Under the pieces are notes generated by a model, which did no database searches, had not been told where the DNA came from, and saw only the letters and a program-made list of their open reading frames with translations. From Nocardia huaxiensis (GTDB lineage Bacteria > Actinomycetota > Actinomycetes > Mycobacteriales > Mycobacteriaceae), in NCBI RefSeq assembly GCF_013744875.1, contig NZ_CP059399.1, positions 6,138,001 through 6,202,000 of the forward strand: a stretch of 64,000 bases of DNA. Reading direction: 5' to 3'. This document shows, one piece after another, positions 25,691 to 41,492 of this stretch. Position numbers and translations under genes: made by a program. Each line of letters opens with the position of its first letter. Positions within the stretch are counted from its first letter, which is position 1.

Positions 25691-25742
25691 GTCCCACCGC
25701 GCTCTGAAATCTCACACTGCGAGTCTCACCGCTGTACAGACC

Positions 25743-25770
25743 GGGCGGACCGTAAAAATACGGTCCGCCC
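25743..25770. terminator. Bidirectional terminator at the end of the secretion operon
   Basis: GGGCGGACCGTA (25743-25754) pairs perfectly with TACGGTCCGCCC (25759-25770) around an AAAA loop, between the convergent coiled-coil gene and the last gene of the secretion operon. Confidence 0.85.
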
Positions 25771-25795
25771 AATGGTTTTCAACGGATCCTCCGGT

Positions 25796-26182
25796 TCAGC
25801 TCGGGAACTCACCCATGGCCGGATTGCTGAACAGCCCGTGCGTGGGCGACTTCAGCGGCAGCGGGGTCAGCATGTCCTTGTGGCCGTTGCGGACACTGCA
25901 GTACTTGAACGGGCCCTTGGGGTCGAACAGGCGCGCCATGTGCGGGTCGGCGTGGTCCAGAAACCATACGGACAGACCGGTTTTGCCATCGAGCCGGTAG
26001 TGCTCCCAGGCACGCCACATGGCCTCCAGTCGCACCACCGCCTCCGCGTGCTTCCACCACTCCGGGCACCACACCGTGTCGCTGATATCGGTGACCTGCC
26101 GCCGATAGACCAGACTCAGGTAGTTCTCGACGAACTCGACCACCGTCGAATAGACCATGGGTGTTTCCTGCTGGTCGCTCAC
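25796..26182 (-). CDS. DUF4913 domain protein, last gene of the secretion operon
   Basis: 128-residue soluble protein with the DUF4913 pattern: LVYRRQVTD, WCPEWWKHAEAVVRLEAMWRAWEHYR, DHADPHMARLF and GPFKYC. The family is common in actinobacterial conjugative elements and plasmids, but its function is unknown. Its ATG overlaps the stop of the coupling-protein gene by four bases, so the two are probably made together. It is the 3' end of a 14-gene minus-strand run starting at 40.4 kb. Confidence 0.82.
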   Translation of the reverse strand: MSDQQETPMVYSTVVEFVENYLSLVYRRQVTDISDTVWCPEWWKHAEAVVRLEAMWRAWEHYRLDGKTGLSVWFLDHADPHMARLFDPKGPFKYCSVRNGHKDMLTPLPLKSPTHGLFSNPAMGEFPS

Positions 26183-28170
26183 AGCGGCCGCGCCTCCTCG
26201 ATTGTGCCCGCGTCGACTACCGGCTTCTTCGTCATGGATAGCCGGTCATTGACCAGATCGATCATCTCTGTCTTCTTCTTCATGCCCGGCTCGTGCTTCT
26301 CCAGCGACTGCAGCACGGCGGTGGAGTACTCGCCCTCCCACCACGGCACCGTCTTGATCAGCACCGCCGGTGTGGCGGAGGAGAATACGATGGCGCGGCC
26401 GGTCGGCAGAGTCGCCAGGGAGTTCACATTGAACGTCTTGGACGACCCCAGCGAGCGCGAATAACTCTTGCCGCCCTTGGATTCCGACACCGACTGCGAG
26501 ATGCTCTCGTACTCGCCGATGGTTTCGGCCCGCTGCTGCAGGAACTGCACATCGTCGACGCCGCTGCCGAGCACCCGCACATTGGCGGCCGCCCACAGCG
26601 CTTCCATGCCGTCCACGCCCCAGCAGCGCGCGCCCTGCGCCCAGGACTGCAGCACCGTCATGACCACGATCCCGCGAGATCCGAAGTGGCTGTAGTGCTT
26701 CGGCAGATCCTTCCAGCGCACCACGTTCGCCGCCTCGTCCAGGACAGCGAGCAGCGGGATGGGCAGCCGGCCGCGTGGGGAACGCGACGCCTTGTGCACG
26801 GCCACGTCGATGACCGCCTCGATGAAGGCGCTCACCAGCGGGCCGGCCGAACTGCGGCCCTCCAGGGACAGACAGTAGAGCGTGCCGTTGCCCTCGATGA
26901 ACTCGAGTTCGTCGAATTGCCTACGGCCGTCCGGCTTCTGGCTGCCCAGCCATACCTCGAGCTTCTCTCGCTTGGCCTTGATGGCCCCCTGCTCGTTCTC
27001 CAGCGAGCCGGCCTTGATCAGCCTGGCGAGCTCGGCCTCGACGTCCTCCTGGGTGTACCGCTTGGACGACTGGATCCAGCGCTGCACCGAGGACAGCTTC
27101 AGCGAGCGGATCATCTTCTTGGCAGTGCCGAAAATGCCGCTGACCGTGCGCGGGTCGGCGTTGTACTGCTGCGCCAGGCCCGAGGCCACGAAGTGGTAGC
27201 TGTCGCGGAACTCGGAGGGAATGTCGTATTTCATGGAGTTGCGCAGGATTTCGATCGGTTCGGTGTCGAGCGGGTTGGTCACCCATTCCCACACCTGGGT
27301 GATCGGTTTCCGCGAGACGGCCGCGGCCAGCAGCAAGGCCGAGAGCAGCTCCTCGGCCTCCTGCGTGAAGTAGGTGTCGGAATCGCTGCCGCCCGTACCG
27401 CCATCGGAGCCGTCGGCGAAATGCCCGGCCAGGCTGGCGGCCCGGCCGTCGTAGCCGGGACGGCCCGGATTGACCCAGGCCAGCGGATCCCAGTACCACG
27501 TGGGCTCTTCGTCCGCGACGCCCTGCGGATCGAAAACCCAAGTGTTGCTGCCTCTTTGCTCTCGCACCAGGCGGGTGGCGTCGACGACGTCGCGCTTGTT
27601 GGAGGTCACCATGGCCGGGCCGATGGCCGACAGGATGGCCGGAATCACGCGCGAGGTGGTCTTGCCCTGGCGCGGGCCCCAAATGTCGACGTGCAGGTCC
27701 TCGTAGGAGCCGTAGAGCATTTCGCCGTCGGCCACGGACATGCCGATCGGGACGCCGGGCAGATCATCCTTGCCCAGGCGCATGCCGATGCGTTCGGCCT
27801 TCTCCCGCGCACCGGCGGCGGTGAGCGACTTGATCGCGCCACCGCTGCCCATGTAGTCGGCCTTGTCGTCGACCGGTAGTCGCCCCACGCTCGCGCGCGC
27901 GGCCGACTTGCGGCGCAGGATGACCCACGCCAGCGCGGCGATGATCACCAGGATCACGATGACGGTGGCCGCGGTGGGCCATACGATCTTGCCTTTGGCC
28001 AGGTCCAGGCCGATGGCGATCGGGTTGATCGGGATCTTCTGGCCGGACAACAGGCTGCCCAGTTGCATGGCGAGCCACAGGGTTCCGAAGATCGCGAACC
28101 CCGCGTAGATCAGATAGAGGGTGGTGTCCGGGCCCGGGTCGGCCGGATCCTTCACCGGTTTCTTCGCCAT
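26179..28170 (-). CDS. VirD4/TraG-type coupling protein (type IV secretion ATPase)
   Basis: 663 residues from ATG 28170, preceded by CAGGAGG. Two N-terminal transmembrane helices (about 16-38 and 62-86) are followed by an ATPase domain with Walker A GPRQGKTT at residues 165-172 and Walker B LLAVLDEAANVV near residue 475, then the TraG-like tail (QSWAQGARCWG, LGSGVDDVQFLQQRAETIGEYE). VirD4/TraG proteins bring substrate (DNA or protein) to the channel. Domain order and length are normal. The usual relaxase partner is not encoded nearby. Overlaps the DUF4913 gene by ATGA. Confidence 0.9.
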   Translation of the reverse strand: MAKKPVKDPADPGPDTTLYLIYAGFAIFGTLWLAMQLGSLLSGQKIPINPIAIGLDLAKGKIVWPTAATVIVILVIIAALAWVILRRKSAARASVGRLPVDDKADYMGSGGAIKSLTAAGAREKAERIGMRLGKDDLPGVPIGMSVADGEMLYGSYEDLHVDIWGPRQGKTTSRVIPAILSAIGPAMVTSNKRDVVDATRLVREQRGSNTWVFDPQGVADEEPTWYWDPLAWVNPGRPGYDGRAASLAGHFADGSDGGTGGSDSDTYFTQEAEELLSALLLAAAVSRKPITQVWEWVTNPLDTEPIEILRNSMKYDIPSEFRDSYHFVASGLAQQYNADPRTVSGIFGTAKKMIRSLKLSSVQRWIQSSKRYTQEDVEAELARLIKAGSLENEQGAIKAKREKLEVWLGSQKPDGRRQFDELEFIEGNGTLYCLSLEGRSSAGPLVSAFIEAVIDVAVHKASRSPRGRLPIPLLAVLDEAANVVRWKDLPKHYSHFGSRGIVVMTVLQSWAQGARCWGVDGMEALWAAANVRVLGSGVDDVQFLQQRAETIGEYESISQSVSESKGGKSYSRSLGSSKTFNVNSLATLPTGRAIVFSSATPAVLIKTVPWWEGEYSTAVLQSLEKHEPGMKKKTEMIDLVNDRLSMTKKPVVDAGTIEEARPL

Positions 28171-28207
28171 CTCTAGCCTCCTGGGATGACCTGTAAGTCG
28201 ATGCCGC

Positions 28208-28903
28208 TCAACGGAATTCGTCCAGCAGCCAGCCGCCGGGGGTGCGTACGACGGTGGCGACGACCGTGGCCGGGGGCAGTGGGGTGCGCCGCCCGTCGGG
28301 GTAAACGACCGTCTGCTCGATGCCGATCTTGTATTGCTGCCGGTCCGGGTCGGCACCCTGGGGCGCCTGCTCACCGGACGCGAACGCGAACGCCTCGACG
28401 TGTGCGCCGGCCTTTCCCCAGTCGGCCCACTGCAGCGACGCCTTCGGCGTTTCCGCTCCGCTGGGTGGCGTATCCAGTGTACGGATCAGGGTGGGACCCA
28501 GCCATTTCCGCGCCCGTCGCAACGCCGCGTCCTGGGATTCGGTGGCCGGATACCAGGTGTAGATCTCACGCAGCGCACTCACGGCAACACCGTCGGCCGT
28601 GGCGGGATCGGGGGCCGGGGCCTTGTCCAGCAGGCGGGTGGTGGAAGTGGGCGGGGACAGCGTGGTGAAGCCCGAACCCTCCGAACTGCCGCTGTCGCCG
28701 CCGCATGCGGTGGCCAGCGTTGCGACGCTCAGCACCAGCATCACCACCCCGATCGCGGGTTGCACCGCCGGTTGCACACCGTCCGGCCCGCGCCGGCGGC
28801 GCAGCACCGGACCATTCCTCCAGGCTAGTCGCTGGGACCGACATGTGGGCGATACCAGCGGTTTTGCCGGATCGGCGTGTTCGCGAACACGGTCGCCGGT
28901 CAT
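28208..28903 (-). CDS. Membrane-anchored NTF2/VirB8-like protein
   Basis: 231 residues. About 48 basic N-terminal residues precede a hydrophobic segment (AIGVVMLVLSVATLATACGG) that is either a helix anchor or a poor lipobox. A Ser/Thr/Pro-rich linker leads to a compact domain of about 140 residues ending PGGWLLDEFR, the ending typical of NTF2-like folds. In Gram-positive type IV systems such proteins are VirB8 (TcpC) counterparts. ATG 28903 overlaps the stop of the OrfA-like gene (ATGA). The fold call is by pattern only. Confidence 0.6.
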   Translation of the reverse strand: MTGDRVREHADPAKPLVSPTCRSQRLAWRNGPVLRRRRGPDGVQPAVQPAIGVVMLVLSVATLATACGGDSGSSEGSGFTTLSPPTSTTRLLDKAPAPDPATADGVAVSALREIYTWYPATESQDAALRRARKWLGPTLIRTLDTPPSGAETPKASLQWADWGKAGAHVEAFAFASGEQAPQGADPDRQQYKIGIEQTVVYPDGRRTPLPPATVVATVVRTPGGWLLDEFR

Positions 28904-29208
28904 ACGCCCCGCTTGGCGTCATTGAGGGTTTCCACCAGGGTGCGGTTCATCTCCGCGGCCGCGGCCAGCTGCTGCTGGAGCAGAGCGACCTTGCGGCGCA
29001 AGGCGATTGCGTCCATGCGCTCCAGGCCCGGGGTTTCCGCGGCGCGCACCCAGTTGCGCACCGAATTGGTGTGCACACCGATCTGGTCGGCGACCACCCG
29101 GCACGCCTCGGATTCGGATCTGAGTTTGCCGGTCAGCGCGATGACCTGTTCGACCGCGGCCTGCCGCACCTCCGGCGACACTCTGCGGTAGGACCGATGC
29201 GGCATCAT
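28900..29208 (-). CDS. IS3 OrfA-like helix-turn-helix/leucine-zipper protein embedded in the operon
   Basis: 102 residues: RVSPEVRQAAVEQVIALTG, a transposase-type helix-turn-helix (SEACRVVADQIGVHTNSVRNWVR), then a heptad region (LRRKVALLQQQLAAAAEMNRTLVETL). This is the layout of OrfA of IS3-family elements. There is no OrfB integrase, no terminal inverted repeats and no target duplication. Both ends overlap neighbouring operon genes by ATGA (29205-29208 and 28900-28903). It therefore looks like a domesticated DNA-binding protein, perhaps an operon regulator or a substrate-DNA recognition factor. Confidence 0.78.
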   Translation of the reverse strand: MMPHRSYRRVSPEVRQAAVEQVIALTGKLRSESEACRVVADQIGVHTNSVRNWVRAAETPGLERMDAIALRRKVALLQQQLAAAAEMNRTLVETLNDAKRGV

Positions 29209-32200
29209 GCGGCACTCCCCTCGTCCCCACCGGTGTCCGTGCCGTGCCCGCGGCGCGCCGTGGTTTCGGTGAATTCGCTGAAACGCTGGTTGGTGTCGTG
29301 GATTCCGCTCTCCTTCTCCGAGAGCGTGAACTCCATGTGGAACGGGATGCCGGGGCGGCGGTCCTCACCGATCTTGAGCAGGAATTTGCCGGTGCCGGGC
29401 GCGGACGGGCGCGTCTGGCCGGGCTTGAGGGCCTCGCCGGTGAGCGCCTGCGGCGCAGACCAACTGGTCACCATTTCCTCCTCGGCGGACGTGAAGGGGA
29501 CCGTGGAATCCAACCGCTGGATCTCCTCGGCGGGCAGGGCGCCGAATATCTTGGCGCGGGCGCGTTCCAGGAAGCCGAGCGCCTTGGCGATGGCGGCCTC
29601 CGAGCCGAGCGCCTGCAGGTCCTTGATGGTGTGCGAGATCATGATCAGCGCGGTGGCGATGCTGCGCTGCAGACGGGTGAGCTCGTCCACGCGGTCGACC
29701 ATGAAGTCGCCCAGGCCCAGCACCTGCCACAGCTCGTCCATCACGACCTGGAAGTAGCGCTGCGGGCCCAGACCGGCGTCGGCGAGCACGTGCGCGGCCT
29801 CCACCGAGGCGAAACCGTCCGCCCAGCAGGCCAGCATGACGGCGGCCTTGAGCTTCTTGTCGCCGTTGGGGATGTGCGAGACGTCGATGCAGACGGCCGT
29901 GGACGCGGTGTCGATGGGAGTTGTGGTGTGGCCGTTGAAGATCGCGCCGAACGGGCCCTGGGTGAGCGCGCGCAGGGAACGGCGCAGGCCCTTGATGGCG
30001 TTCTGGTATTCGTCGGGATTGTCGGCGCCGGCGTCGAGCTGCAGTTCGTCGCCGCCGGCCACGATCACGGCCAGCAGATCGTCGAGGATGGGCGGCTTGT
30101 CCGGGGTGAACTCGCTGCCGTCCCGGTAGAGGATGCGCAGGCCCGTGGAGATGAGCGTCTCCTCGTAATCGCGTACGCGCGCACCGCGAACCAGCTCCAC
30201 CAGGCCCGCCACCAGGGTGACCTGGCGGGCGCGCAGCTCCTGCATGACCTGGGTCTGCAACACCGGCATATCGTCCAGCCGCGGTACGACCGAGCCGAGC
30301 ACGCCGGCGGCGAGGGGGTTGAGTTTCCCGTGCCCGTAACCCAAATCGATGACCTGCCCGCCGACCAGCTCCACGAGCTTGCGGTAGTCGGGCTTCACGT
30401 CGGCCAGGATGAGCGGCGTAATCCCCTGCGCCACACCACCCAGCACGATCCGTCGCACCAGCGACGATTTACCGAAACCGTTGAGCCCCAGCACGAAAAG
30501 GCTCGGCGCGGTGATGAAGCTGCCGCGCATGAACCAGTTCATCGGGTCGAAGCACACCGGCGCGCCGGTATGCAGGTGCGATCCCAGCGGCGTCCCGATC
30601 AGCGGCGCACCCGCACCCACCGACCACGGCCACAGCCCGGCGACCTGCGCTGTGGTGGCACGGTATTCGACGGGGCGGCCGATCACGTTCATTCGCCCGC
30701 CGCCCTCGCCTACATACCCGCGATCGGTGAGCTGCTGTGTGCTGCGGTCGAATTCGTCGAAGCTCCCGTACTCCATCCGCTCCGCGCGCGCCGCGAAATT
30801 CCGCCGCCGCAGATCATCGGTGTGCAGCCGGAACGTGGCCAGCGCGGCCCGAATCCCATTGCCTTCGCGCGCGGTGACTTCCAACCGCGCCCGCGTGGCA
30901 TCGTCGAGCAGCTTCGGCCCCGACTGCTTCTTCTTCCCGGACTGCTTCCGCACCGGCGTGGCTTCGATGTCCTTGCTGCGCCTGCCGCGTCGCGCACCCT
31001 TGCGCATATCGACATCCGCGGCAGCGACTTCCGGCCGCGGATTCCGCGCAGGGCGTTTCCGCACCGGCCGCTCCCCCGCGTCCCCGTCCGGCCGCACCCG
31101 CCGTTCCCGCTCGGGTCCCCCGGTGCGCCCACCGAGATGCACCCGATCGGCATCGGTGCGACGCGTCTCGCTCCCCTGGGGCCGGCCGCGCCGCACCTCT
31201 CGATCCTCGCCACGCCGTTCCTGGCCGCCCCGTGCGGGCCGTCCCTCCAGCTCGGGCGTCTCCGCATCATGCGCGCGTTCCCGCGTGCCTCGCCTGTTCC
31301 GCATCGCCTCCCCCTCTCCCCGGTCGGCCCCACGGTCGGCCCCCGGGGCGCGGCGCATCCGCTCACGCTCCGGCCCACCCGGGCGCTTCCCGCCCGAGCT
31401 CTCCGAACCCTGTTCTCGCCCACGCCCCCTGGCCTCCGAACCCGGCTCACGGGTACGACCACCGGCCGACCGCGGATCAGCATCGCGCGACCGCGCCGAT
31501 CCGGAACCCGCAGCCGCCGAACGGGTTTCGCCCGCACCGGCGTCCAGCCGCGCGAGCGCCTTTCCGGGCGCGGATCCAGCAGCTCCCGAATCACCCTGTC
31601 CCGCAGCGGCACCGGCTTCGCCGCGCGCACGGTCGGCATTGCCGCCGACCCGTCCGGCGGCCTCGGCCGATCCCGTGTGACCCGCGCCGGCATCATCGGA
31701 TCCGTCGCCGACGCCGGCAGCGGTTCGGCGCAGCGCGTCGAGCGGTCCTGCCGCGCGGTCATCGCCGCGGTCCGCGTGTCCGGGAGCATCCGAATCCGCA
31801 GCAACTGCGCCGGATTCACGGGGCGGTCGCGCCTTGTCGGGGCGGTTCGGCCCTGTCGCGCTGTCGGTGGTGGCCGCCGCGGATGCCTTCTGCACTGCGC
31901 CCGACCCGGTTTCGCCCATTCCGGCGGTGCGGTCGGACCTCCGGGGCGCATCCGATGCCGCCGAGGGCGCGTCACCGCCGGCCGTCGGCTCGGGTGCCGT
32001 ACTCGACTCGCGGGATCGCACCGAGGCTGCTGCCGGTTCGTGTGCTTCGGCCCCCGAGGACCTCTGCCGTGCTGCGCCGGAGCCGCTGTGCTCCGGCCCG
32101 CGCACCGCGCTGTCGGAGTCGAGCGTCTCCGCGCGTGCGGCAGGCTGCCCGGAGGATTCCTGAAGTGTGTGCGGCCGTTCGTCTTCCGGACCGGAAGCGG

Positions 32201-33497
32201 GCGATGTCGCGCGATCGCCGTCCGTGGCCCGCGATGCGGACGACCGCATCGGGTCGGCGACATCCGCATCGGCCGCGCGGCGCGCATGGCCGGGACTGTC
32301 CGCGCCATCGGCGGCGCGCCGCACCGATGCCGTTGTGGCGCTGTCGTGCTCGACCCGCGCATCGACTTCGGAGGCGCCGGGCCGGACCGATGCGGCCGCG
32401 TCGCGGGCATCCCCGTCCCGCGTTTCCGGCGTGGCGGACGTGCGGCGCAGAACGGGCGCTGCCTCGTCGGCGGTGTGGGAATCGGCCGATGTGTCGACTC
32501 CCGGTGTGACGGCACCGGTCGTCGCGTGACGGTCTGCGGCGGAGTCCGGAGTGGATGTGGTGGTCGCCGTGGTGGCCTGGCGAGCGGCGGGCGACAGCTC
32601 AGCGGGGCGTCCCTCCGCCGCAGCGGTGGGCGCGCGGCCCGGGGTGCGGGTGCGTTCCAGTTCGGCCATTTCGGCGGCGGCGCGGCGGGCTGTCGGGGAC
32701 GCCTCCGACGGTTGGTCGGGGATGCCCGAGGTGCGGGCTGCGGCGCGGGCGTCGGAGCGGGCCGCGATCTCGGCGGCGGCGCGACCGGGGGCGTTCAGGG
32801 ATTCGGCGGCGCGTTCGCGGCCGGAGGTGGTGCGGGAGGGCTCGCGGGCGCCGGCGGATGCGGATACGCCAGGGGTGGTGCGGGATTCATCGCGCACGCG
32901 GGCGGCGCCGGAGGTGGCGGGGGCCGAGCCGCGCGCGCCGGTGGGGCCGGATTTCTCTGCGGCGCGGGCGCTTTCGCGGGCCGCGATTTCAGCGGCGGCG
33001 CGGGCGGGTGCGCTGAGGTTCTCGGGCGGACGGCGGCGGGCGGAGAAGGTTCGGGCGGGTTGCGGCTCCGGGGTTTCCGGGGCTTCAGGGGCGGCAGTGT
33101 TCGGGTCCTGGGTGGTCCAGGAACCATCCTTGTGATTGCGGGGAACGTCGGGGTCGGTGGAGCGGCGGTCGGTGCCGCGGACCCGGGCGCTGGTGGTGCG
33201 GGCGGCGATGCGGGCGCGTTCGAGTTCGGCCATTTCGGCGGCTCGACGTTCGGCGCTCGTCATGGGGGGTGGGGTGGGCTCGGGTTCGAACGGGGTGTCG
33301 CGGCGCAGCAGGCGACGATCCGGGAGGGTGCCGCGGCGGGGGCGGTGTTCGTCGCGCACGACTCGGGGGGACGCCGCGGCTTCGGCATCCCGAGGAGGCT
33401 GGGCGGGGGCATCGGGGGTGGACCCGTCGCGGCGGGTGCCGCGGCGGGTCGAGGCCGAATCCCGTTCCCGGACCGGTGGTTCGAAGTCACGAGCCAT
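29205..33497 (-). CDS. VirB4-like ATPase with a giant disordered N-terminal extension
   Basis: 1430 residues. The C-terminal 570 residues are a VirB4/TraC-type hexameric motor: the domain starts about residue 856 (KLLDDATRARLE). Walker A GLNGFGKSS lies near residue 1006, then LILADVKPDYRKLVE and Walker B FQVVMDELWQVL near 1254. Residues 1-855 are low complexity (Arg, Ala, Asp, Glu, Ser, Gly). Early on there are four copies of an AAEIAAR/AAEMAELER motif (about residues 79-99, 161-181, 234-254, 266-286). VirB4 ATPases energise pilus or channel assembly. The N-terminal VirB4 half appears to be supplied by the upstream SCO6880-type gene. ATG 33497 lies 6 bases after that gene's stop; the 3' end overlaps the OrfA-like gene. 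Confidence 0.85.
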   Translation of the reverse strand: MARDFEPPVRERDSASTRRGTRRDGSTPDAPAQPPRDAEAAASPRVVRDEHRPRRGTLPDRRLLRRDTPFEPEPTPPPMTSAERRAAEMAELERARIAARTTSARVRGTDRRSTDPDVPRNHKDGSWTTQDPNTAAPEAPETPEPQPARTFSARRRPPENLSAPARAAAEIAARESARAAEKSGPTGARGSAPATSGAARVRDESRTTPGVSASAGAREPSRTTSGRERAAESLNAPGRAAAEIAARSDARAAARTSGIPDQPSEASPTARRAAAEMAELERTRTPGRAPTAAAEGRPAELSPAARQATTATTTSTPDSAADRHATTGAVTPGVDTSADSHTADEAAPVLRRTSATPETRDGDARDAAASVRPGASEVDARVEHDSATTASVRRAADGADSPGHARRAADADVADPMRSSASRATDGDRATSPASGPEDERPHTLQESSGQPAARAETLDSDSAVRGPEHSGSGAARQRSSGAEAHEPAAASVRSRESSTAPEPTAGGDAPSAASDAPRRSDRTAGMGETGSGAVQKASAAATTDSATGPNRPDKARPPRESGAVAADSDAPGHADRGDDRAAGPLDALRRTAAGVGDGSDDAGAGHTGSAEAAGRVGGNADRARGEAGAAAGQGDSGAAGSAPGKALARLDAGAGETRSAAAGSGSARSRDADPRSAGGRTREPGSEARGRGREQGSESSGGKRPGGPERERMRRAPGADRGADRGEGEAMRNRRGTRERAHDAETPELEGRPARGGQERRGEDREVRRGRPQGSETRRTDADRVHLGGRTGGPERERRVRPDGDAGERPVRKRPARNPRPEVAAADVDMRKGARRGRRSKDIEATPVRKQSGKKKQSGPKLLDDATRARLEVTAREGNGIRAALATFRLHTDDLRRRNFAARAERMEYGSFDEFDRSTQQLTDRGYVGEGGGRMNVIGRPVEYRATTAQVAGLWPWSVGAGAPLIGTPLGSHLHTGAPVCFDPMNWFMRGSFITAPSLFVLGLNGFGKSSLVRRIVLGGVAQGITPLILADVKPDYRKLVELVGGQVIDLGYGHGKLNPLAAGVLGSVVPRLDDMPVLQTQVMQELRARQVTLVAGLVELVRGARVRDYEETLISTGLRILYRDGSEFTPDKPPILDDLLAVIVAGGDELQLDAGADNPDEYQNAIKGLRRSLRALTQGPFGAIFNGHTTTPIDTASTAVCIDVSHIPNGDKKLKAAVMLACWADGFASVEAAHVLADAGLGPQRYFQVVMDELWQVLGLGDFMVDRVDELTRLQRSIATALIMISHTIKDLQALGSEAAIAKALGFLERARAKIFGALPAEEIQRLDSTVPFTSAEEEMVTSWSAPQALTGEALKPGQTRPSAPGTGKFLLKIGEDRRPGIPFHMEFTLSEKESGIHDTNQRFSEFTETTARRGHGTDTGGDEGSAA

Positions 33498-33503
33498 GGA
33501 GGA

Positions 33504-34994
33504 TCACCCCGCAAGTGCTTTCGGAATGGTGGCGTGCTCGGGCAGGATGACGCCGCAACCCAGGGAGGCGGCGAAGGCGGCGCCCTGGTAGCGGTAGCAG
33601 CGCCGGATCTTGAGCCGCGCCTGGGTGGACAGGTCCCGGGTGATCGCCTCGATGCGCGGCAGGTCACCGCGCAGCGGCTCGGTGATGGTCACCAGCGCGC
33701 CGAAGCGGGTGACGCCGTGGCCGCGGGCCTGCTCCTCGCGGGCCTGCTGGGTGGCGCCCACCCGGATGGTGGCCGAGGCCGACACGACACCGCGTTCGCT
33801 CTGCTGGGCGACGAGCGCGTTCTTGTAGTCGTCGTCGACGATCTGCGCGGCGTCACCGGCCGAGTGCGGGCGGTACACGATGGCGATGCGTTTACGCGGC
33901 ACTTCGGGATTCGGCGCGAGCAAGCGCTGCAGCACCCGCTCGTCGACCGCACCTTCGGGCGCGGTGTCCATCTCCCAGGTGACCGAGCGGCCGCCATCGT
34001 GGATGAAGTGATCCCAGCGCTCCTCGTGCGAAACCGGCCCGGCGTCAGCCCAATCCAGGCCGTGACCGCCGGGCTCGCCCGCCGCCACTTCCAGATCCGC
34101 CTGCGAGGCGGGGTCGTAGCTGCGCCGGATGAAGGAGATGACCTCGTCGGCCGACATGGGCTGCGCGCGCACGCCCGCCTCGGCCAGCGCCGCGCAGATG
34201 CCCGGCAGTCGCCGGCCGATCTCGACCGCTTCCTCGGCCGGGTTCTTGCGCCGCTCGGCGGTGGTGGCCTTGAACGTGATTGCCACCCGCGGCAACAGCT
34301 GCACGCGTTCCTGCGGCAGCTCGGTCGCCAGCTCGTACATGACCTGCTGCGCCAGATCCGGCGACTCCGGCCGTGTGATGGCGGAAACCTCGGTGAGCAA
34401 ACGGTTTCCGGTCTCGGGCACGGTGTCGATCACCGGCACGACGGCCACGATGTCGGAGGTCTGCCCCAGCGAGGCCAGGAAGGTGCCCCACGCCGCCACC
34501 CACCGGTCGATGACCGGCTGGTCCACGGCCTCGTGCCCCTGCGGCCAGGCCCGCAGAACCACTGTGTACTGCCCGAATTGGGGTAGGTGGATCATGCCGA
34601 AGCTGTAGCCGCCCGCGTCGATGCCCTCGTAGAGCCGCGACGGCGCCATGAGCCCGGGCAGCCGCGTGACACCGCCGGGGATCCGGGAGAACCGGCCACC
34701 GCGGTACACGTGCTCGCCCTTGGAGCGGCCCCGCAACCAATGGAACATCATCAATCCCGTCTCGTAGCCGGAGCGACCCCCGGTCCGCCACACCAGTGGA
34801 ACCATCACGATCACGCCGACGCCGGCCACCACCGCCGCCGGTTTGGGTCCGGCCACCAGCGCCACCAGCAGGGCGGTGATCACGACCGCGAAACCGACCA
34901 CGGTCTCACCCCAGCGCAGGCCGAAAAGTCCTGCGCTGCGGGGCTTCTGCCACAGTCCGTACGAGCGGCGCTCGTAGGTGTCGGTCATCGTCAT
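33504..34994 (-). CDS. SCO6880-family type IV secretion protein (VirB3/VirB4 N-half-like)
   Basis: 496 residues. Two transmembrane helices at about 27-65 (TVVGFAVVITALLVALVAG; VVAGVGVIVMVPLVW), a VirB3-like feature, are followed by a large cytoplasmic domain (YSFGMIHLPQFGQYTVVLRAWPQG, ERVQLLPRVAITFKATT, GALVTITEPLRGDLPRIEA). Actinobacterial type IV clusters regularly place an SCO6880 protein just before the VirB4-type ATPase, as here. Start ATG 34994 overlaps the stop of the upstream channel gene by four bases. Confidence 0.82.
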   Translation of the reverse strand: MTMTDTYERRSYGLWQKPRSAGLFGLRWGETVVGFAVVITALLVALVAGPKPAAVVAGVGVIVMVPLVWRTGGRSGYETGLMMFHWLRGRSKGEHVYRGGRFSRIPGGVTRLPGLMAPSRLYEGIDAGGYSFGMIHLPQFGQYTVVLRAWPQGHEAVDQPVIDRWVAAWGTFLASLGQTSDIVAVVPVIDTVPETGNRLLTEVSAITRPESPDLAQQVMYELATELPQERVQLLPRVAITFKATTAERRKNPAEEAVEIGRRLPGICAALAEAGVRAQPMSADEVISFIRRSYDPASQADLEVAAGEPGGHGLDWADAGPVSHEERWDHFIHDGGRSVTWEMDTAPEGAVDERVLQRLLAPNPEVPRKRIAIVYRPHSAGDAAQIVDDDYKNALVAQQSERGVVSASATIRVGATQQAREEQARGHGVTRFGALVTITEPLRGDLPRIEAITRDLSTQARLKIRRCYRYQGAAFAASLGCGVILPEHATIPKALAG

Positions 34995-36466
34995 CGCGGA
35001 ATGGTGCTCCTGCCGAGGTCGGGTGAACGGTTGGCCCAGGTGTCACCGGCGAGGTCGCCCATCTTCTCGTCGGCCCGGTTCAGGCTCGACGTGGCGGCCC
35101 GCACCTGGGCCGCCCGGTTGGCCGCGCGCGCCGCGCCTGACGGTACTGCGCCGGAACCGCCTCCGCCGGAAGGACTCGCGGCCGCCGCGCCGCCGCCTCC
35201 GCCACCGCCGCCCGGGCGTGGCGGGGGCACGGGCCGTCCGCCGGTGCCGGGCAGGCCGCGACCGGAGCCGCCGGGCGGGCGCGGGCCGCGGCCCGGACCC
35301 ACATGTCCCGCAGCGCCTGTCGTGGCGCGCGGCGCGACGGCACGCGTACCGACCGCACCGAGGGCCGCGACACCGACGAGGGTGCCGGTGGTGGCGGTCA
35401 AACCGGAACCACCGCTGCCGACGATGGCGACGGCCGGGGTGGCCAGACGCATGAGTGCGGGCAGCACGAACGCGACCGAGCACAGCAGCACGATGGCGAC
35501 CAGCATGCGCTGCGCCTGATCGGCATCCGGCAGCGTGCCCGCCTGACTGAGTTCGTCGACGTGCCCGGCGGTGGCGAAGGCGATCATGTACACGATGGCC
35601 GCCACCGGCTTGTAGAGCATGAAGGCGATGATCCAGCCGAGCAGTTTCGGATACGACTGCTTACCGGTATTGGTGCCGGAAGCCGCTGCGGCCAAGGGCA
35701 ATACACCGGCGGCCACGATCAGCAAACCCTGCCGGACGATGGCCAGCACGATCTGCGCGAGCGCCCCCAGCAGGCCCACGATGGCGATGATCAGCACCAG
35801 ACCCGGCGAGAAGGCTTGCAGGGCGGCGGTTTTCACCATCAGCTCGGCCAGGTTCTGGGCTTCGCCATTGGTGGAGTCGTTGATCACCCACTCGGAGAAC
35901 TTGTCCGAAGCCTGGGTGCCCGCCACGATGACCGCGCCCAGCATCCAGGAGCTGAAGATCACCCGCGCGAACATCCGGAACGATTCGGTGGCCTCGCTGA
36001 CCGCGGCTCCGCGCCTGGCTTCGGCGAGCTTCGCACCGGTGAGGATCACCGACACCATGAGTAGCAGGATCTGCGCCTGATACGTGTAGTCGTTGATCTT
36101 CGTGAACAGCGTGCCGGTGTCGCTGACTCTTTCGTTGGGCACCTTCATCCAGAAGGTGAGCGCCAGGATCAGCGCCTCGCCCAGACCGCTCATGAGCGAG
36201 TCCACCACCTTGCCGAAGGTGGAGTCCCAGGCCTTGTCCCGCACGGCTTCGGCCGCGTCGGTGGGGTGCGTGGCCACATTGCCGGCCTTGCACGCCGCCG
36301 AGGCCGCGTCACCGAGGGTGATGCCCGGGATGCCGAGTCCGTCGAGCGAGTCGTGGATCTCGTTGCAGGTCTCGTCGAAGCCGTAGGTCTGACCGTACGC
36401 CACGGTGGGCGTCGCGATCATGACGGTGAACACGACCGCCAGGATCGTGAGGAGCTTCCTCAGCAT
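34991..36466 (-). CDS. VirB6/TrbL-like polytopic membrane protein
   Basis: 491 residues from ATG 36466 with GAGAGGTGG upstream (GTG 36475 is an alternative). A signal-like N-terminus (LLTILAVVFTVMIATPTVAYG) and an external segment with two cysteines (ETCNEIH, AACKAGN) precede five or six hydrophobic helices (about residues 90-370). A long Pro/Gly/Arg- and Gly-rich cytoplasmic tail follows, with an 8-Gly run. The topology matches VirB6/TrbL channel components of Gram-positive type IV systems. It is coupled to the SCO6880 gene. Confidence 0.8.
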   Translation of the reverse strand: MLRKLLTILAVVFTVMIATPTVAYGQTYGFDETCNEIHDSLDGLGIPGITLGDAASAACKAGNVATHPTDAAEAVRDKAWDSTFGKVVDSLMSGLGEALILALTFWMKVPNERVSDTGTLFTKINDYTYQAQILLLMVSVILTGAKLAEARRGAAVSEATESFRMFARVIFSSWMLGAVIVAGTQASDKFSEWVINDSTNGEAQNLAELMVKTAALQAFSPGLVLIIAIVGLLGALAQIVLAIVRQGLLIVAAGVLPLAAAASGTNTGKQSYPKLLGWIIAFMLYKPVAAIVYMIAFATAGHVDELSQAGTLPDADQAQRMLVAIVLLCSVAFVLPALMRLATPAVAIVGSGGSGLTATTGTLVGVAALGAVGTRAVAPRATTGAAGHVGPGRGPRPPGGSGRGLPGTGGRPVPPPRPGGGGGGGGAAAASPSGGGGSGAVPSGAARAANRAAQVRAATSSLNRADEKMGDLAGDTWANRSPDLGRSTIPR

Positions 36467-36503
36467 GGGGTCCACCTCTCGATGGGTCGCAATGCCATCT
36501 CAT

Positions 36504-37331
36504 TCACCATTTCGTCCACCCCACCAGGGAATCGACCTTCTCGGTCTGTGAGGTCTTGGAGGTCGCCGGTTTGAGCCGCCAGTCCCCGGCGTCCCACACC
36601 ATGATCAAACGCACCGCCGACCACTGCTGCTGGTTGCCGAGCACCGGGCCGCGCACGGCCAGTCGCACGATCGCCATGTCGTCGGCGTAGTTCTCGATCT
36701 GGAAGGCGTCGGGCGCCACCAGATAGCGGGTCACCTTCTCCGGCTGCTGTTTCGGCAGCCGGTCGTCGGCCAGGGCCTGGTCGTAGGCGGCGATCTGCTG
36801 GGTGCTCACGCGCACCTGCCGCACATACAGTTCCCGGTCGGCCGGACGGGCATTGAGCCGGTAGGTGATCTGCGCGGCCGCCACCGCCGCACCCTGCGGG
36901 GTGTGCGAATAGCCCACGGCCAGACCGTTTTCCAGCTTGGTCGGACCGTCGGAGGTGGTGAACGGCACCGACGCCCCGTAGACCCGCTGCCAGCCGTGCG
37001 GGTCGGTGAGACCCGCGGGGGCGGCGGTCAGCCAGTCCGAGTCGCTCGCGCTGCGCTGCTTGGACGAGTCCTGCGGAAGCGGTTGTCCCGCAGGGTTGTT
37101 CGGGACGTCGACGCGCCGCCCGAACAGGTCGATATCCGGGGAGGCGAAGCCGGTCAACCCGGAATCACCCGAAGTCACTTGCCCGCCTTCGACTTTCACC
37201 GGCGACGAGGCCGCGTCGTCACGACTGAAGTAGACCACCGCGCCGACGATGAGGATCAGCACCACCACGGCTGCGGAGGCGATGACGCCGAACGAGACGC
37301 GGTCGCGCTCGGGCGACTCCTTCTCGCTCAT
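36504..37331 (-). CDS. Single-pass membrane protein, DUF8175-like (VirB8-like)
   Basis: 275 residues. A short basic cytoplasmic N-terminus, one helix (about residues 14-37, FGVIASAAVVVLILIVGAVVYF), and an external domain containing a Trp-rich block (HGWQRVYGASVPFTTSDGPT), a helical segment (LYVRQVRVSTQQIAAYDQAL) and the C-terminal RLIMVWDAGDWRLKP. Proteins of this type occur in actinobacterial secretion clusters and have VirB8-like architecture; the DUF number is from memory. GGAGG precedes ATG 37331. Confidence 0.68.
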   Translation of the reverse strand: MSEKESPERDRVSFGVIASAAVVVLILIVGAVVYFSRDDAASSPVKVEGGQVTSGDSGLTGFASPDIDLFGRRVDVPNNPAGQPLPQDSSKQRSASDSDWLTAAPAGLTDPHGWQRVYGASVPFTTSDGPTKLENGLAVGYSHTPQGAAVAAAQITYRLNARPADRELYVRQVRVSTQQIAAYDQALADDRLPKQQPEKVTRYLVAPDAFQIENYADDMAIVRLAVRGPVLGNQQQWSAVRLIMVWDAGDWRLKPATSKTSQTEKVDSLVGWTKW

Positions 37332-37383
37332 GATGGCGCCTCCAAGTTTCGTATCCCACTGGACAATTCAGCTGCACACGCCT

Positions 37384-37647
37384 TTACGTCGGCAGCAGGG
37401 CGAGGGCGATGCCGCTGGCCGAACTCGCCATGATGGCGCCCAGCAGGCTCATCACCACCCCGTGCGTCGCGTCGTTCTCGGCCAGGTCATCACGGAACGC
37501 GTACCAGAGTCTGCCCGCGGACAGGATCATCCAAGCCATACAGAACAGCAGCACGACCCACAGCAGCCAGTCGATCAGCTGCATGATGGGCCGGATCACG
37601 TCCGCCGGCATCTGCTTGTATGCCAGCACGGCCAGGGTGGCGTTCAT
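37384..37647 (-). CDS. Small two-helix membrane protein (VirB2-like), copy B
   Basis: 87 residues with two hydrophobic helices (LLWVVLLFCMAWMILSAG and VVMSLLGAIMASSASGIALAL) joined by a charged loop. It shares spacing and residues with the preceding 96-residue protein: W-VLL, AGR, and a C-terminal GAI-AS/TSAG helix. Small two-helix proteins in this position of type IV clusters are pilin or VirB2/VirB3-like. The stop of copy A lies 7 bases upstream of ATG 37647. Confidence 0.7.
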   Translation of the reverse strand: MNATLAVLAYKQMPADVIRPIMQLIDWLLWVVLLFCMAWMILSAGRLWYAFRDDLAENDATHGVVMSLLGAIMASSASGIALALLPT

Positions 37648-37654
37648 GAGCCGA

Positions 37655-37945
37655 TCAGCCGATCGCTGCGTTCATGATCGTGCCCGCACTGGTGGCGATG
37701 ATTCCACCAATCATGGCTCCGGCCACCATCTTCGGCGACTCCAAACCGCCTCCTGTCCACTTCTCCCACGCGAAGCGGCCGCCCGCGTAGGTGATGCCCA
37801 TGATTCCCGACAACAGCACGAACCAAGTGAAGTAGCGAACCAGTTTCAGCAACTTGTCCGACGCGGGCGGCGCCTCCGGGGTCGGGTTCCCGACCTGAGC
37901 GAGGAGGGAGCCGTACGCGTCGTGTACGGCGAGAAGCATGCTCAT
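37655..37945 (-). CDS. Small two-helix membrane protein (VirB2-like), copy A
   Basis: 96 residues. A soluble N-terminus of about 30 residues, helix 1 YFTWFVLLSGIMGITYAGG, a loop with WEKWTGGG, and helix 2 VAGAMIGGIIATSAGTIMNAA. The glycine/alanine-rich second helix is typical of VirB2/TrbC pilins, though no signal peptide is seen. It is a paralogue of the next gene. Its ATG overlaps the stop of the 53-residue ORF by ATGA; GGAGAAGGA lies upstream. Confidence 0.7.
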   Translation of the reverse strand: MSMLLAVHDAYGSLLAQVGNPTPEAPPASDKLLKLVRYFTWFVLLSGIMGITYAGGRFAWEKWTGGGLESPKMVAGAMIGGIIATSAGTIMNAAIG

Positions 37946-38103
37946 TGTCTGTCCTTCTCCAAAAGCGAACTGCTAGTAACAATCTCGCCGATGAGCGGTT
38001 TGCCCGCAGCACCGGAGGAAACTTCCAGAGCTATCGGTCCATCGGTCAACGGACGCGCGGAAGACGTTCGCACGCAGAGCATTCCACGCATCTTCATGAT
38101 CAT
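37942..38103 (-). CDS. Small 53-residue protein coupled on both sides
   Basis: A short open frame exactly bridging two genes. ATG 38103 overlaps the upstream stop by ATGA, and its own TGA overlaps the downstream ATG by ATGA (37942-37945). The predicted protein begins MIMKMRGMLCVRTS, contains GPIALEVSSGAAGKPLIGEIV, and ends SSLLEKDRQ. An AGGGG lies well placed for the second ATG (38097). Without it there would be a 154-base hole in an otherwise tightly packed operon. No family recognised; not hydrophobic. Confidence 0.65.
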   Translation of the reverse strand: MIMKMRGMLCVRTSSARPLTDGPIALEVSSGAAGKPLIGEIVTSSSLLEKDRQ

Positions 38104-38768
38104 TCCCCTCGGTCCGGCGCGTCGTCGCGTGGCGTGTCCAGCGCGTGCTGGACGGCCGCCAGCAGTCCGGCGCCGAGCTCCCGGACTTCGGGCGTGATCT
38201 CGTGCAGCGCATCGACTTTGCGCTTGCCCTTGGCGGGCGGCGCGTCACCGGGCGACCACACCGGCAGCTGATCGGGCTCGACGAGGGTCCACTCCTCGTG
38301 CCAGGGCAGCTGCCACACCTGTCCGGCCAGCGAACCGACCACGTCGCGGTAGCGCCGGATCTCCGCGGGGATCCGGCCCGGCCGCGCGGCCACCGTCACC
38401 AGGCCCAGCACCTCGCACGGCCCGGCCAGGCCGGCGTGATGCTGGCGCAGCAGGTCGTGGGCGCGGGTCAGGCCGGAGATGGTCTCGCGGGCCACCAGCA
38501 CGACGAACGGGGATTCGCGGTCGAAGACTCCGGGCCAGCGGCGGTGCGAATCCGCCGCCGGCGCAAGGACATGCGAGAGCGTGGTCGCGCCCGCGCCCCC
38601 GTGCACGCCGAGCAGCCACACCAGTGGTGCGCGGCCGGCGCCGGGTACGGGACGGTCCCAGATCGGTGCGCGGCGGGCTTCCGGCGGCGGCACCACACCG
38701 GCCGCGAGAGCGGCCCCCGAAGCAATGTTCTGGGCGGAGGATCGGCGTTCCTTCATGGCTGCGGTCAT
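38100..38768 (-). CDS. ParA/MinD-like protein with an altered P-loop (DUF6668-like)
   Basis: 222 residues. After a disordered start, WLLGVHGGAGATTLSHVL stands where a deviant Walker A (KGGxGKTT) would be, but both lysines are missing. FVVLVARETISGL and EVLGLVTVAARPGRIP follow as in SIMIBI ATPases. Such proteins in actinobacterial transfer clusters are annotated DUF6668 (from memory). ATP hydrolysis is doubtful; it may bind nucleotide weakly or act as a partner of the next ParA-like protein. Overlaps neighbours on both sides by ATGA. Confidence 0.68.
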   Translation of the reverse strand: MTAAMKERRSSAQNIASGAALAAGVVPPPEARRAPIWDRPVPGAGRAPLVWLLGVHGGAGATTLSHVLAPAADSHRRWPGVFDRESPFVVLVARETISGLTRAHDLLRQHHAGLAGPCEVLGLVTVAARPGRIPAEIRRYRDVVGSLAGQVWQLPWHEEWTLVEPDQLPVWSPGDAPPAKGKRKVDALHEITPEVRELGAGLLAAVQHALDTPRDDAPDRGE

Positions 38769-39640
38769 GATGCCACTCCAGCAAGCAGGCGGCGATACGC
38801 GCGGCGTGTCTCAGCGGCAAGATTGCTGTGGCGCACCAGTTCTCCGCGGGCGAGGTGCGGGTCGTAGGGAATCTCCCGGATGTCGCGGACCCAGCCGTCG
38901 AGGTGCTCCCGCAAATGATCAGCGATCCGGGAGTCGGTGCCGGGCAACTGATGTGACACGACAATCGTGGTGTCGCCGACAATCCCGCCGCCCTGCCCCT
39001 CGCCCGGCGCGCCGAACTGGTCGTCGAGCCACTCCAGGGTGACGCGCAGCCGGTTGGCGGCGTCGACGCGAGCCGGAATCGACAGCACCAGAGCGATATC
39101 CGCGTCCTCGAGCAGCGGCCGCAGGTGCCGGGAGGCGATCGGATTGCCGCCGTCGTATACCGGGGTATACCCCGCGTCGTCGATGGCGCGGGTGACGGTC
39201 AGATAGGTCGCACGGCGGCGCAGCGGGTCCGGATCGCGCCACAGCAGGCCGATCCCGGAGGTTGCCCGGGACAGGCATTCCTTGAGCGGAGCCGGTTCGT
39301 TGTCGCCGCGGCCGTAGAGCCAGGACTGTAGCGAGATCGGGCTCAGGTGCTCATCCGCGCCGCGGAGAGCAAGATCACTGCCGGCCGAGGTCGCGTCGAC
39401 TGCGACCACCTGCGCGCCGACCGCGCCGATCTCACCCGCGATTCCCAGTGCGGTAGTGGTGGTTCCGGCGCCGCCGCAGCCGCCGACCACGAGGATCGGG
39501 CGCTGGGCCGGACCGGATTCGCCGGAATCCCCACGGCGCTTGCGCAATCGAACCACCGGAGCCTTGGAACGCGCGGCACGACTCGACGATTCGCCCTCCT
39601 CGGGCATTTCGTCGAGCCAGCGGCTCCAGTCCTGATCCAT
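38765..39640 (-). CDS. ParA/CpaE-like NTPase with a lysine-free P-loop
   Basis: 291 residues. The N-terminus is acidic and disordered. The P-loop region reads ILVVGGCGGAGTTTTALGIAG, so the catalytic lysine of GKT is Thr, as in some CpaE/TadZ/Ssd proteins. VVAVDATSAGSDLALRG follows as the switch I/Walker A' equivalent, and DIALVLSIPARVDAANRL as the later strand. Likely a localisation or assembly factor for the membrane machine. The stop overlaps the start of the second ParA-like gene. Confidence 0.75.
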   Translation of the reverse strand: MDQDWSRWLDEMPEEGESSSRAARSKAPVVRLRKRRGDSGESGPAQRPILVVGGCGGAGTTTTALGIAGEIGAVGAQVVAVDATSAGSDLALRGADEHLSPISLQSWLYGRGDNEPAPLKECLSRATSGIGLLWRDPDPLRRRATYLTVTRAIDDAGYTPVYDGGNPIASRHLRPLLEDADIALVLSIPARVDAANRLRVTLEWLDDQFGAPGEGQGGGIVGDTTIVVSHQLPGTDSRIADHLREHLDGWVRDIREIPYDPHLARGELVRHSNLAAETRRAYRRLLAGVAS

Positions 39641-39699
39641 TGGTCTCAGCTCTCCCTCTCAGCCCGCCGGGCTGCCTGCGACAGATTCATGGTCGCCGA

Positions 39700-40380
39700 T
39701 CATCGCGGGGCCGTCATTTCGTTGTACGCCGCCAGACCGTCGCTCGGACCGAAACGGGTTGCCCCGTAGAGGGTGCCCAGCGATTGCGCGGTGCCGCTGT
39801 GCGAGTTCAGCACATACAGGGCAATTCCGCCCGCGACGGCCAGCAACAACACGGCAACAATGAGGAAGGCAATTGCGAAAAGTCGTCGGCCCGTGGACCG
39901 CTCGGCGGCGCCCGCCGCCGAGTCGTTGCGATCCAGGGCATCCAGCAGCGCGGAGGCGCGGTCGACCGGCTGGTCGGCATCGCCGTCGAACTCGCGGGCG
40001 CGCTCGTACGGCGCGGCGCCGGGTTCGTCGGCCTCGCTGGGGAATTCCAGGACGGTCGAGGCGCGGTAGCGCAGTCTCGGTGTGTACGAGTCGGACTCGC
40101 GATCGGTCATCCAGTCCGACCACGCCCCGCTGAAATGGCTGCGCCGCAGCACCGATTCCGGCAGTGGCGGAATGTCCAACTCCGGTTCGTCGTCGGTGAT
40201 GTAGTGCGGGTAGCGCGCGAGGCCGTCCGCCGGATCGAGATCCTCGACACCGAAACCGGTGTCGCCGTTGGCATCCGGGGCATCGGCGGCCGGATCCAGG
40301 GCCGGATACCAGCGCGAGACTTTTTTGTACGACTTCAACATTGCGCGGGGAGCCGCGGCGCCAGGCTCGTCCTGCTGCAT
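39700..40380 (-). CDS. Membrane-anchored protein of unknown function, first gene of the secretion operon
   Basis: 226 residues from ATG 40380 (MQQDEPG; GAGAGGG upstream). The first 160 residues are acidic and look disordered, with Tyr/Pro motifs (YPALDPAADAPDANGD, ARYPHYITDDEPELDIPPLP, FSGAWSDWMTD). One transmembrane helix near residue 175 (LFAIAFLIVAVLLLAVAGGIALYVL) leaves about 35 residues outside. Topology is N-in. It could be a cytoplasmic docking arm. It opens the operon, 59 bases ahead of the CpaE-like gene. Confidence 0.7.
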   Translation of the reverse strand: MQQDEPGAAAPRAMLKSYKKVSRWYPALDPAADAPDANGDTGFGVEDLDPADGLARYPHYITDDEPELDIPPLPESVLRRSHFSGAWSDWMTDRESDSYTPRLRYRASTVLEFPSEADEPGAAPYERAREFDGDADQPVDRASALLDALDRNDSAAGAAERSTGRRLFAIAFLIVAVLLLAVAGGIALYVLNSHSGTAQSLGTLYGATRFGPSDGLAAYNEMTAPR

Positions 40381-41433: not shown

Positions 41434-41442
41434 GTCGGGCGC

Positions 41443-41479: not shown

Positions 41480-41492
41480 GGTCGAATCCCGG

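Follow-up and report, generated by a model that had tools for sequence, protein, structure and literature searches.

A conjugation-type secretion operon without a relaxase, fixed at one chromosomal site across Nocardia, and its likely use for protein export

Introduction

The type IV secretion system (T4SS) treated here is encoded in a 64,000-nucleotide stretch of Nocardia huaxiensis DNA (contig NZ_CP059399.1, positions 6,138,001 to 6,202,000; hereafter the window), and its operon follows the gene order of transfer operons from conjugative plasmids of the Rhodococcus type. On such plasmids a MOBF relaxase is found together with the T4SS, as described in part of PMC6852188. The 'MOBless' T4SSs are likewise chromosomal and have no relaxase in their locus; passages of PMC3158045 propose their domestication into protein transport, argue for protein export as the role of most T4SSs that lack a relaxase, and give Proteobacteria and some environmental bacteria as hosts, with few T4SSs from Actinobacteria. 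Another chromosomal cluster, conserved in Streptomyces, is cmdABCDEF of Streptomyces coelicolor (SCO4126-4131), with VirB4-, SCO6880- and SCO6881-like parts, which we liken to the Nocardia operon by its description only; it comprises six genes, no VirD4, hydrolase, cutinase or pilin is named for it in the relevant passages of PMC2782261, and its mutants are affected in differentiation. Finally, the pRAW-type mycobacterial hybrids of type VII and type IV secretion (T7/T4 hybrids) share VirB4, TcpC (VirB8) and a MinD-type ATPase with the Nocardia operon, according to portions of PMC12803027 and PMC4791881.

The Nocardia operon differs from the T7/T4 hybrids in having no ESX genes: the EccE match on its SCO6880-family protein scores 18.2 bits against a cut-off of 23.7, and a Pfam match to EccC is absent from the block, so that it does not qualify as a type VII system. 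With the MOBless systems it shares a chromosomal position, a locus without relaxase and vertical inheritance under purifying selection; unlike them, it is near-universal in a mycolic-acid genus and accompanied by dispersed pilin-like paralogues. It is an open question how proteins get through the mycolate outer membrane, and type VII systems are the usual candidates. A T4SS maintained by selection throughout a mycolic-acid genus with many members that infect people would, if this is true, represent a second export route. Searches of the open PMC literature yielded no description of the Nocardia locus, subscription papers lying outside that search.

Here we show that a relaxase-less, conjugation-type T4SS is fixed between ppiB and relA genus-wide in Nocardia. 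We consider it likely, with moderate confidence, that this system is a protein exporter owned by the cell and not a mobile element for DNA transfer.

A single chromosomal site across the genus

Genome-wide statements below concern relatives of the window strain, not the window's own genome. The genus survey covered 150 Nocardia genomes, and the relaxase and hydrolase surveys drew on 148 genomes. The locus set consists of the best 80 of 101 relatives found by an SCO6880 scan of genome contigs; all 80 are titled Nocardia and show 90-100% identity. Genomes numbered above G150 are presumably non-Nocardia, since a genus search open to 200 genomes gave 150, and a set of 401 genomes of the family includes many from Nocardia. 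The chromosomal genes around the operon are as follows.

22459..23733, minus strand: hisS, left chromosomal flank (PF13393, 141 bits; in 50/80 loci)
23863..24678, plus strand: ppiB-like cyclophilin gene, left border of the insertion (PF00160, 101.5 bits; in 67/80 loci)
48717..50951, minus strand: relA, right chromosomal flank (PF04607, 146 bits; in 43/80 loci)

Both ppiB and relA are present in 38 loci, and the sides are always as expected. In the 13 loci without ppiB the contigs stop before its place. As for the 37 loci without relA, 26 stop before the first ParA gene of the operon, nine belong to the window clade (loci L001-L011 and L022) and have other genes between relA and TM1, the membrane protein gene at the right end of the operon, L029 stops 3.9 kb past the ParA gene, and L077 has no relA in the 5.3 kb available. 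In L031 and L033 relA is inverted next to the operon.

Operon genes of the same clade occur in 149 of the 150 Nocardia genomes, which settles the question of conservation that the initial annotation had left for checking. By our reading of the match table, SCO6880 reaches at least 90% identity in 130 genomes, some copies being cut by contig ends. Real absence from the other 20 was considered and rejected: in 18 of them VirD4, the helix-turn-helix (HTH) gene and VirB4 are present, in 16 cases together with ppiB, and the contig breaks off at VirB4 or shortly after it, before SCO6880; G109 shows relA, cutinase and TM1 followed by a contig end; and only G056 remains. SCO6880 of Nocardia acididurans LPG 2 (L001) is 100% identical after rounding, with a nonsynonymous distance (dN) of 0.003, but the DNA of the locus is only 86-91% identical, which suggests that the window comes from a sister species.

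In 13 of 14 non-Nocardia genomes of the family, ppiB lies about 0.07-1.4 kb from the end of relA (0.8-1.4 kb in five of them) with no T4SS match in between; in the 14th, ppiB was not in the stretch covered. G180 (4.2 Mb; kept apart from the 14) is an exception outside the genus list, with an operon at the same site and SCO6880 at 86% identity. Apart from it, SCO6880 identity stays at or below 63% in every genome of the 401-genome set that lies outside the genus list, and fragmented G164 contains a piece of a similar operon (L177).

The initial annotation had found no relaxase, integrase, replication gene or att repeat, and this holds: relaxase, integrase and replication families are absent from the 50 genes, out of 53 called in the window, that were scanned with Pfam (three small genes fell outside the scan), and none of the 17 families of direct repeats of at least 18 nt within 23800-41000 brackets the block. 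The window contains no tRNA. Thus, of the features of a conjugative element, VirD4, VirB4 and channel genes are found, and a relaxase, an integrase, att site or replicon, and a variable site are not. That the block is fixed is strongly supported, and a private island or an integrative and conjugative element (ICE) of the strain was rejected because the site is conserved. As a conjugation operon that was domesticated at a single known site, with the junction empty in outgroups, the locus makes a clear example.

Gene content of the operon

Thirteen minus-strand genes at 25796-40380 make up an actinobacterial T4SS operon of the SCO6880 type. The block had been delimited correctly in the initial annotation, with fourteen genes counted. 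From the downstream end, the features are the following.

25743..25770, listed on the plus strand by the scan: terminator-like hairpin of 12 pairs between the operon end and X, a convergent gene described below
25796..26182, minus strand: DUF4913 protein, last gene of the operon (PF16259, 140 bits)
26179..28170, minus strand: VirD4/TraG-type coupling ATPase (PF12696, 100.9 bits; PF02534, 72.6 bits); frame open to a GTG at 28374
28208..28903, minus strand: extracytoplasmic lipoprotein-like protein (gene at the same position of plasmid pVAPB1593, 28.7% identity, E = 9e-10)
28900..29208, minus strand: HTH protein of 102 amino acids (aa), similar to IS3 OrfA (PF01527, 26.3 bits; cut-off 24.1)
29205..33497, minus strand: VirB4-type ATPase with a low-complexity N-terminal extension of about 830 aa (NF045975, 59.7 bits, and PF19044, 22.6 bits, both below cut-off)
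33504..34994, minus strand: SCO6880-family protein (NF042935, 565.9 bits, cut-off 60; 90-100% identity in the 80 loci)
34991..36475, minus strand: VirB6-like polytopic membrane protein (pVAPB1593 counterpart 33%, E = 3e-40)
36504..37331, minus strand: TcpC/VirB8-like protein (pVAPB1593 counterpart 26%, E = 2e-13)
37384..37647, minus strand: pil1, two-helix pilin-like membrane protein of 87 aa (hydropathy; PF18895 T4SS_pilin, 14.5 bits, cut-off 26.6)
37655..37945, minus strand: pil2, pilin-like membrane protein of 96 aa (pVAPB1593 counterpart 41%, E = 2e-20)
38100..38768, minus strand: ParA/CpaE-like protein 2, ParA2 (DUF6668; PF20373, 25.1 bits, cut-off 27), by eye without the Walker A lysine
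38765..39640, minus strand: ParA/CpaE-like protein 1, ParA1 (TIGR03815 and CbiA, below cut-off), without the Walker A lysine
39700..40380, minus strand: TM1 membrane protein, without the C-terminal domain seen in other loci (locus comparison)

All 13 reading frames are open. With the VirD4 start taken as 28170, four-base overlaps occur at 5 of the 12 gene junctions and not, as had been stated, at most of them. Of the terminators reported at the 3' end, one strong hairpin does lie beyond the operon; the scan yielded 3 terminator-like sites in all, against 6.5 expected by chance.

The VirD4-, VirB4-, VirB6-, VirB8- and pilin-like parts and the two ParA-like proteins named in the initial annotation were recovered by profiles, position and tblastn, several of them below curated cut-offs. 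The firmest family call is that of SCO6880, and the collinear VirB4, VirB6-like, TcpC-like and DUF4913 genes assign the operon to the SCO6880-type actinobacterial T4SSs. Genes below cut-off were named by position and tblastn to the annotated conjugative plasmid pVAPB1593, and the VirB6-, VirB8/TcpC- and small pilin-like proteins gave no Pfam match above cut-off. Searches of solved structures linked VirB4 to one VirB4-like chain (E = 0.0012) and returned no match for the VirD4 and SCO6880 profiles; PADLOC reported a single weak VirB4 match. From SCO6880 to the VirB4 core there is a stretch of 197 to 3700 bases, depending on the species (77 loci). A non-coding nature of the VirB4 extension was ruled out, since the frame is open from near the SCO6880 end in 75/77 loci; in the 27 loci where the stretch exceeds 1 kb, this frame holds 1 stop vs 87 and 333 in the other two.

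Comparison with plasmid pVAPB1593

The gene order of pVAPB1593, with roles beyond the names in its record assigned by tblastn, is MobF relaxase, hypothetical, topoisomerase, hypothetical, DUF4913, VirD4, a gene at the lipoprotein position, M23 hydrolase, a gene at the HTH position, VirB4, SCO6880, VirB6-like, TcpC-like, a gene for a 203-aa protein, two small genes, two ParA-like genes, TM1, hypothetical and cutinase. Nocardia loci keep this order of the Rhodococcus/Prescottella conjugative plasmids (pVAPB1593; NZ_CP147922) from DUF4913 to the ParA-like genes, and in many Nocardia as far as TM1 and cutinase. Identity between plasmid and window is 52% for SCO6880 and 45% for VirB4, and relatives of SCO6880 are found in 454 plasmid records.

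Relaxase and topoisomerase adjoin DUF4913 on pVAPB1593. In tblastn searches of the window and of the L067, L014 and G180 loci, neither of these two genes, nor the three hypotheticals, nor the gene at the HTH position found a match. The plasmid has MobF, topoisomerase and partition genes alongside its T4SS and carries no X, whereas the Nocardia operon is chromosomal and fixed.

Selection and inheritance

We estimated the ratio of nonsynonymous to synonymous divergence (dN/dS) from pairs with dS 0.1-1 only, excluding G180 and matches covering 75% of the query or less; 16 hisS and 28 relA sequences passed the coverage filter as controls. Median values are 0.079 for SCO6880, 0.100 for HTH, 0.111 for pil2, 0.155 for VirB4, 0.161 for ParA1, 0.195 for ParA2, 0.211 for VirB6, 0.245 for pil1, 0.281 for DUF4913, 0.301 for TcpC and 0.355 for the lipoprotein, compared with 0.060 for relA, 0.129 for hisS and 0.397 for ppiB. 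SCO6880 and VirB4 therefore resemble relA and hisS. All 77 VirB4 and all 75 VirD4 sequences that were usable have both Walker motifs, A and B, intact, three matches with stops having been dropped from these counts. Internal stops were seen in 1/74 matches of X, 1/74 of DUF4913 and 1/79 of VirB4, and in none of the others.

Pairwise distances of SCO6880 and VirB4 track those of hisS (Spearman 0.75 and 0.73; reached by none of 199 permutations, G180 excluded); the control comparison of hisS with relA, with fewer taxa, gave 0.44. In a tree built from those of sequences P0001-P0120 longer than 430 aa plus ten others, the chromosomal copies group together in a single clade (support 0.897), with P0012 and P0013 beside it. 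The operon is inherited vertically and is under purifying selection. In this tree P0012 (77% identity) is sister to the core clade. In G022, a second, related T4SS with SCO6880 at 77% (L121, G022:C1:6775001-6795000) shares its contig with the core copy.

The operon taken apart in the window clade

The initial annotation called the operon complete-looking, which does not agree with the locus comparison: a hydrolase, the C-terminal domain of TM1, a cutinase and a lipoprotein of about 200 aa, all known from other loci, are absent from the block. Outside the window clade, an in-operon M23-SLT-NlpC/P60 hydrolase gene is present in all 64 loci that cover the stretch, the C-terminal domain of TM1 in 43/43, the lipoprotein of about 200 aa in 33/45 and the cutinase in 32/43. 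The corresponding counts in the window clade are 0/10 for the hydrolase, 0/9 for the TM1 domain, 1/9 for the lipoprotein and 0/9 for the cutinase, most of these loci stopping short of relA; in the window, which does reach relA, there is no cutinase match. Since cutinase and lipoprotein are also absent from 11/43 and 12/45 loci outside the clade, they are not essential. In L146 and L147, C-terminal cutinase matches of 45-52 aa lie between relA and TM1, possibly the remnant of the gene in that clade.

A hydrolase of the same architecture, overlooked in the initial annotation, is encoded beyond relA.

53085..55049, minus strand: M23 + SLT + NlpC/P60 peptidoglycan hydrolase (Pfam)

Over 442 aa it shares 68% identity with the product of the in-operon gene of L067, and it has presumably moved out of the operon. 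This 654-aa type occurs outside the operon in 20/148 genomes (69-92% identity), and in the 12 with hydrolase and SCO6880 on one contig the two are about 14-39 kb apart. With this copy and these 20 genomes, simple loss of the hydrolase in the window clade was rejected. The same 20 genomes all carry a cutinase of 56-60% identity away from the operon (in G121 as two pieces, 56% and 63%). Among four other genomes searched, G003 has a second cutinase of 52% over most of its length, G010 a copy of 53% with a stop, and G005 and G037 only short, weaker matches. In the five of the 20 genomes viewed (L140-L144), an unlinked satellite cluster comprises the cutinase, two proteins of the TM1 C-domain type, a ParA1 paralogue, a lipoprotein of the kind of about 200 aa and a pil2 copy of 75-89% identity. 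The operon has thus been split into unlinked loci with its parts retained.

Protein X and the dispersed pil2 family

Next to the DUF4913 end, where the plasmid carries relaxase and topoisomerase, Nocardia has a convergent gene that had likewise been overlooked.

25109..25690, plus strand: X, charged coiled-coil protein of 193 aa, convergent to the operon (AlphaFold2 model, homologue search)

X is present in 72/80 loci, the other eight ending before its place, and G180 carries it at 38% identity; the copy in L071 has a stop inside the match. It belongs to no Pfam or NCBIfam family and has no match in 72,556 plasmid records. There are 194 homologues, and among the 120 listed those with a name are Nocardia except for one 'Streptomyces gardneri'. 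The AlphaFold2 model is all-helical; its N-terminal helix is long and its C-terminal one rich in arginine (mean predicted local distance difference test, pLDDT, 76.7; predicted template modelling score, pTM, 0.30). On average the last 25 residues contain 7.0 arginines in the 120 homologues vs 2.1 in 53 window proteins. Arginine-rich C-termini are known as T4SS export signals. This feature and the place beside the VirD4-DUF4913 end make X the best candidate for a substrate or adaptor, and no more than a candidate.

pil2 has 4-7 matches per genome in all 30 Nocardia genomes examined, including the operon copy, some copies in plasmid-type T4SSs (53-63%) and two contig-end pieces in G005. Within 14 chosen 11-kb regions away from known T4SSs in five genomes (L148-L161), 17 copies have no adjoining T4SS match. 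For three of these lone loci, G150 and G001 show the same neighbours, and a divergent pil2 pair has a neighbour common to G025, G123 and G003. Conservation of the sequence is strong and includes NPTPE-like and ATSAGTIMN motifs. Of the 31 genomes compared from outside the genus, 20 lack pil2, among them G165, which has an SCO6880 system; nine have copies together with an SCO6880 system; G180 has one, in the operon, and fragmented G164 has six. Judging by position, proteins of the pil2 type would be pilin subunits.

Possible function and alternative explanations

One fixed site, the lack of a relaxase and purifying selection make it likely that the machine serves the cell itself, and the VirD4 Walker motifs, kept in every usable sequence, argue for delivery of a substrate. 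Of the two options raised in the initial annotation, a fixed exporter of protein or DNA has held up as regards fixation, and its substrate would be protein; the block stays in place, which speaks against an element that moves itself with a borrowed relaxase. Presumably, an ancestor of Nocardia acquired a conjugative plasmid or integrative element at the ppiB-relA junction, after which relaxase and mobility genes would have been lost and the channel kept by the host. VirD4 would take up the substrate at the inner membrane, and VirB4, SCO6880, VirB6 and TcpC-like proteins may form an ATP-driven channel. Opening of the wall and the mycolate layer could fall to the peptidoglycan hydrolase and, in loci that have it, the cutinase, and the outer conduit might be built from the small membrane proteins, with dispersed pil2 paralogues as alternative subunits. 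In such a machine motor and channel would be fixed, envelope enzymes tolerated at a distance, and the parts for substrate recognition (VirD4, X) faster-evolving. More tentatively, and at odds we would put clearly below even, the system may be a genus-wide exporter across the mycomembrane with interchangeable pilins, X in the place of the relaxase and movable envelope enzymes, lone pil2 proteins swapping into the conduit in the manner of orphan hcp/vgrG of type VI systems.

Several observations weigh against a cell-owned protein exporter. The substrate is at candidate level only, X has no known fold, X and VirD4 evolve faster (dN/dS 0.283 and 0.287), and distances of X follow those of relA weakly (0.188; reached by 3/199 permutations). 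The names VirB6, TcpC and pilin derive from position and weak similarity; the AlphaFold2 model of TcpC is poor (mean pLDDT 55.5), with weak NTF2-like matches only, the best PDB match having E = 0.09. The window block is without parts present in other Nocardia loci, and the operon has possibly been lost in G056, which has no clade-A VirB4, SCO6880 or strong hydrolase match and in which relA adjoins other genes. TrwC matches are found in 102/148 Nocardia genomes. Of 48 genomes not TrwC-positive, two of which (G084 and G089) apparently lie outside the draw of 148, 7 carry PF03432; PF03389 was found in 0/42 (the remaining 40 of the 148 plus G084 and G180). The 40 genomes (of 148) without TrwC, Relaxase or MobA_MobL match are to be read with the fact that MOBV, MOBT, MOBC and Replic_Relax were not searched. 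Many Nocardia genomes also have a second, plasmid-type SCO6880 system. With this and the TrwC relaxases, the machine may transfer DNA in trans, through relaxases of resident plasmids.

Accordingly, the strongest competitor, which we regard as unlikely but serious, is a chromosomal conjugation machine that moves resident plasmids, their relaxases docking on VirD4, or chromosomal DNA in a relaxase-independent manner. Retention of VirD4 and the channel, the conjugation-system type of the module and the frequent TrwC relaxases fit it, and a passage of PMC12803027 discusses the possibility that mycobacterial linear plasmids with a T7/T4 hybrid are transferred without a relaxase. Yet all 40 genomes without the three relaxase families keep the operon, the locus itself has neither relaxase nor integrase, the plasmid's relaxase and topoisomerase have no match there, and plasmid-type T4SSs able to serve plasmids coexist in many genomes. 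Somewhat less probable still is a developmental or cell-envelope machine that acts in hyphal growth, fragmentation or segregation and secretes no effector, a proposal that arises because cmd is the nearest tested precedent. cmdB is VirB4-like, cmdC and cmdD resemble SCO6880 and SCO6881, and cmd mutants show short aerial hyphae and segregation defects (passages of PMC2782261); the CpaE/ParA-like proteins of the Nocardia operon would suit such a role. VirD4, for which the same passages name no cmd counterpart, is nevertheless conserved in Nocardia, and hydrolase, cutinase and pilin-like genes in the operon or its satellites suit an envelope-crossing conduit.

The gene order of a conjugative plasmid and the parts missing from the window copy could also be those of an ordinary ICE, an integrated plasmid of the strain or a decaying remnant. 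This is very improbable, given the same site genus-wide, the lack of integrase, relaxase and bracketing direct repeat, dN/dS far below 1 and the rarity of internal stops. A DNA-uptake (competence) machine like Helicobacter ComB, with which a fixed T4SS without relaxase would be compatible, is the least probable of all: Helicobacter ComB is not known to have a VirD4, whereas VirD4 is conserved here. We thus return to the cell-owned protein exporter as the preferred reading.

Neighbouring genes in the window

The gap between TM1 and relA (40672-48592) encodes a short-chain dehydrogenase/reductase (SDR), a BD-FAE hydrolase, Ppnp, a DUF6585 protein, a molybdopterin oxidoreductase domain, a STAS protein and a SpoIIE/PAS/STAS regulator; most other loci are without those genes there, which suggests a clade-specific insertion. 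At 16391-18291, the gene for a small EspC-like ESX protein (PF10824) precedes one for a protein of 530 aa that matches no family at E = 1e-6. A gene similar to those of aminoglycoside/hydroxyurea kinases (PF04655, 120.7 bits) lies at 55148-56056.

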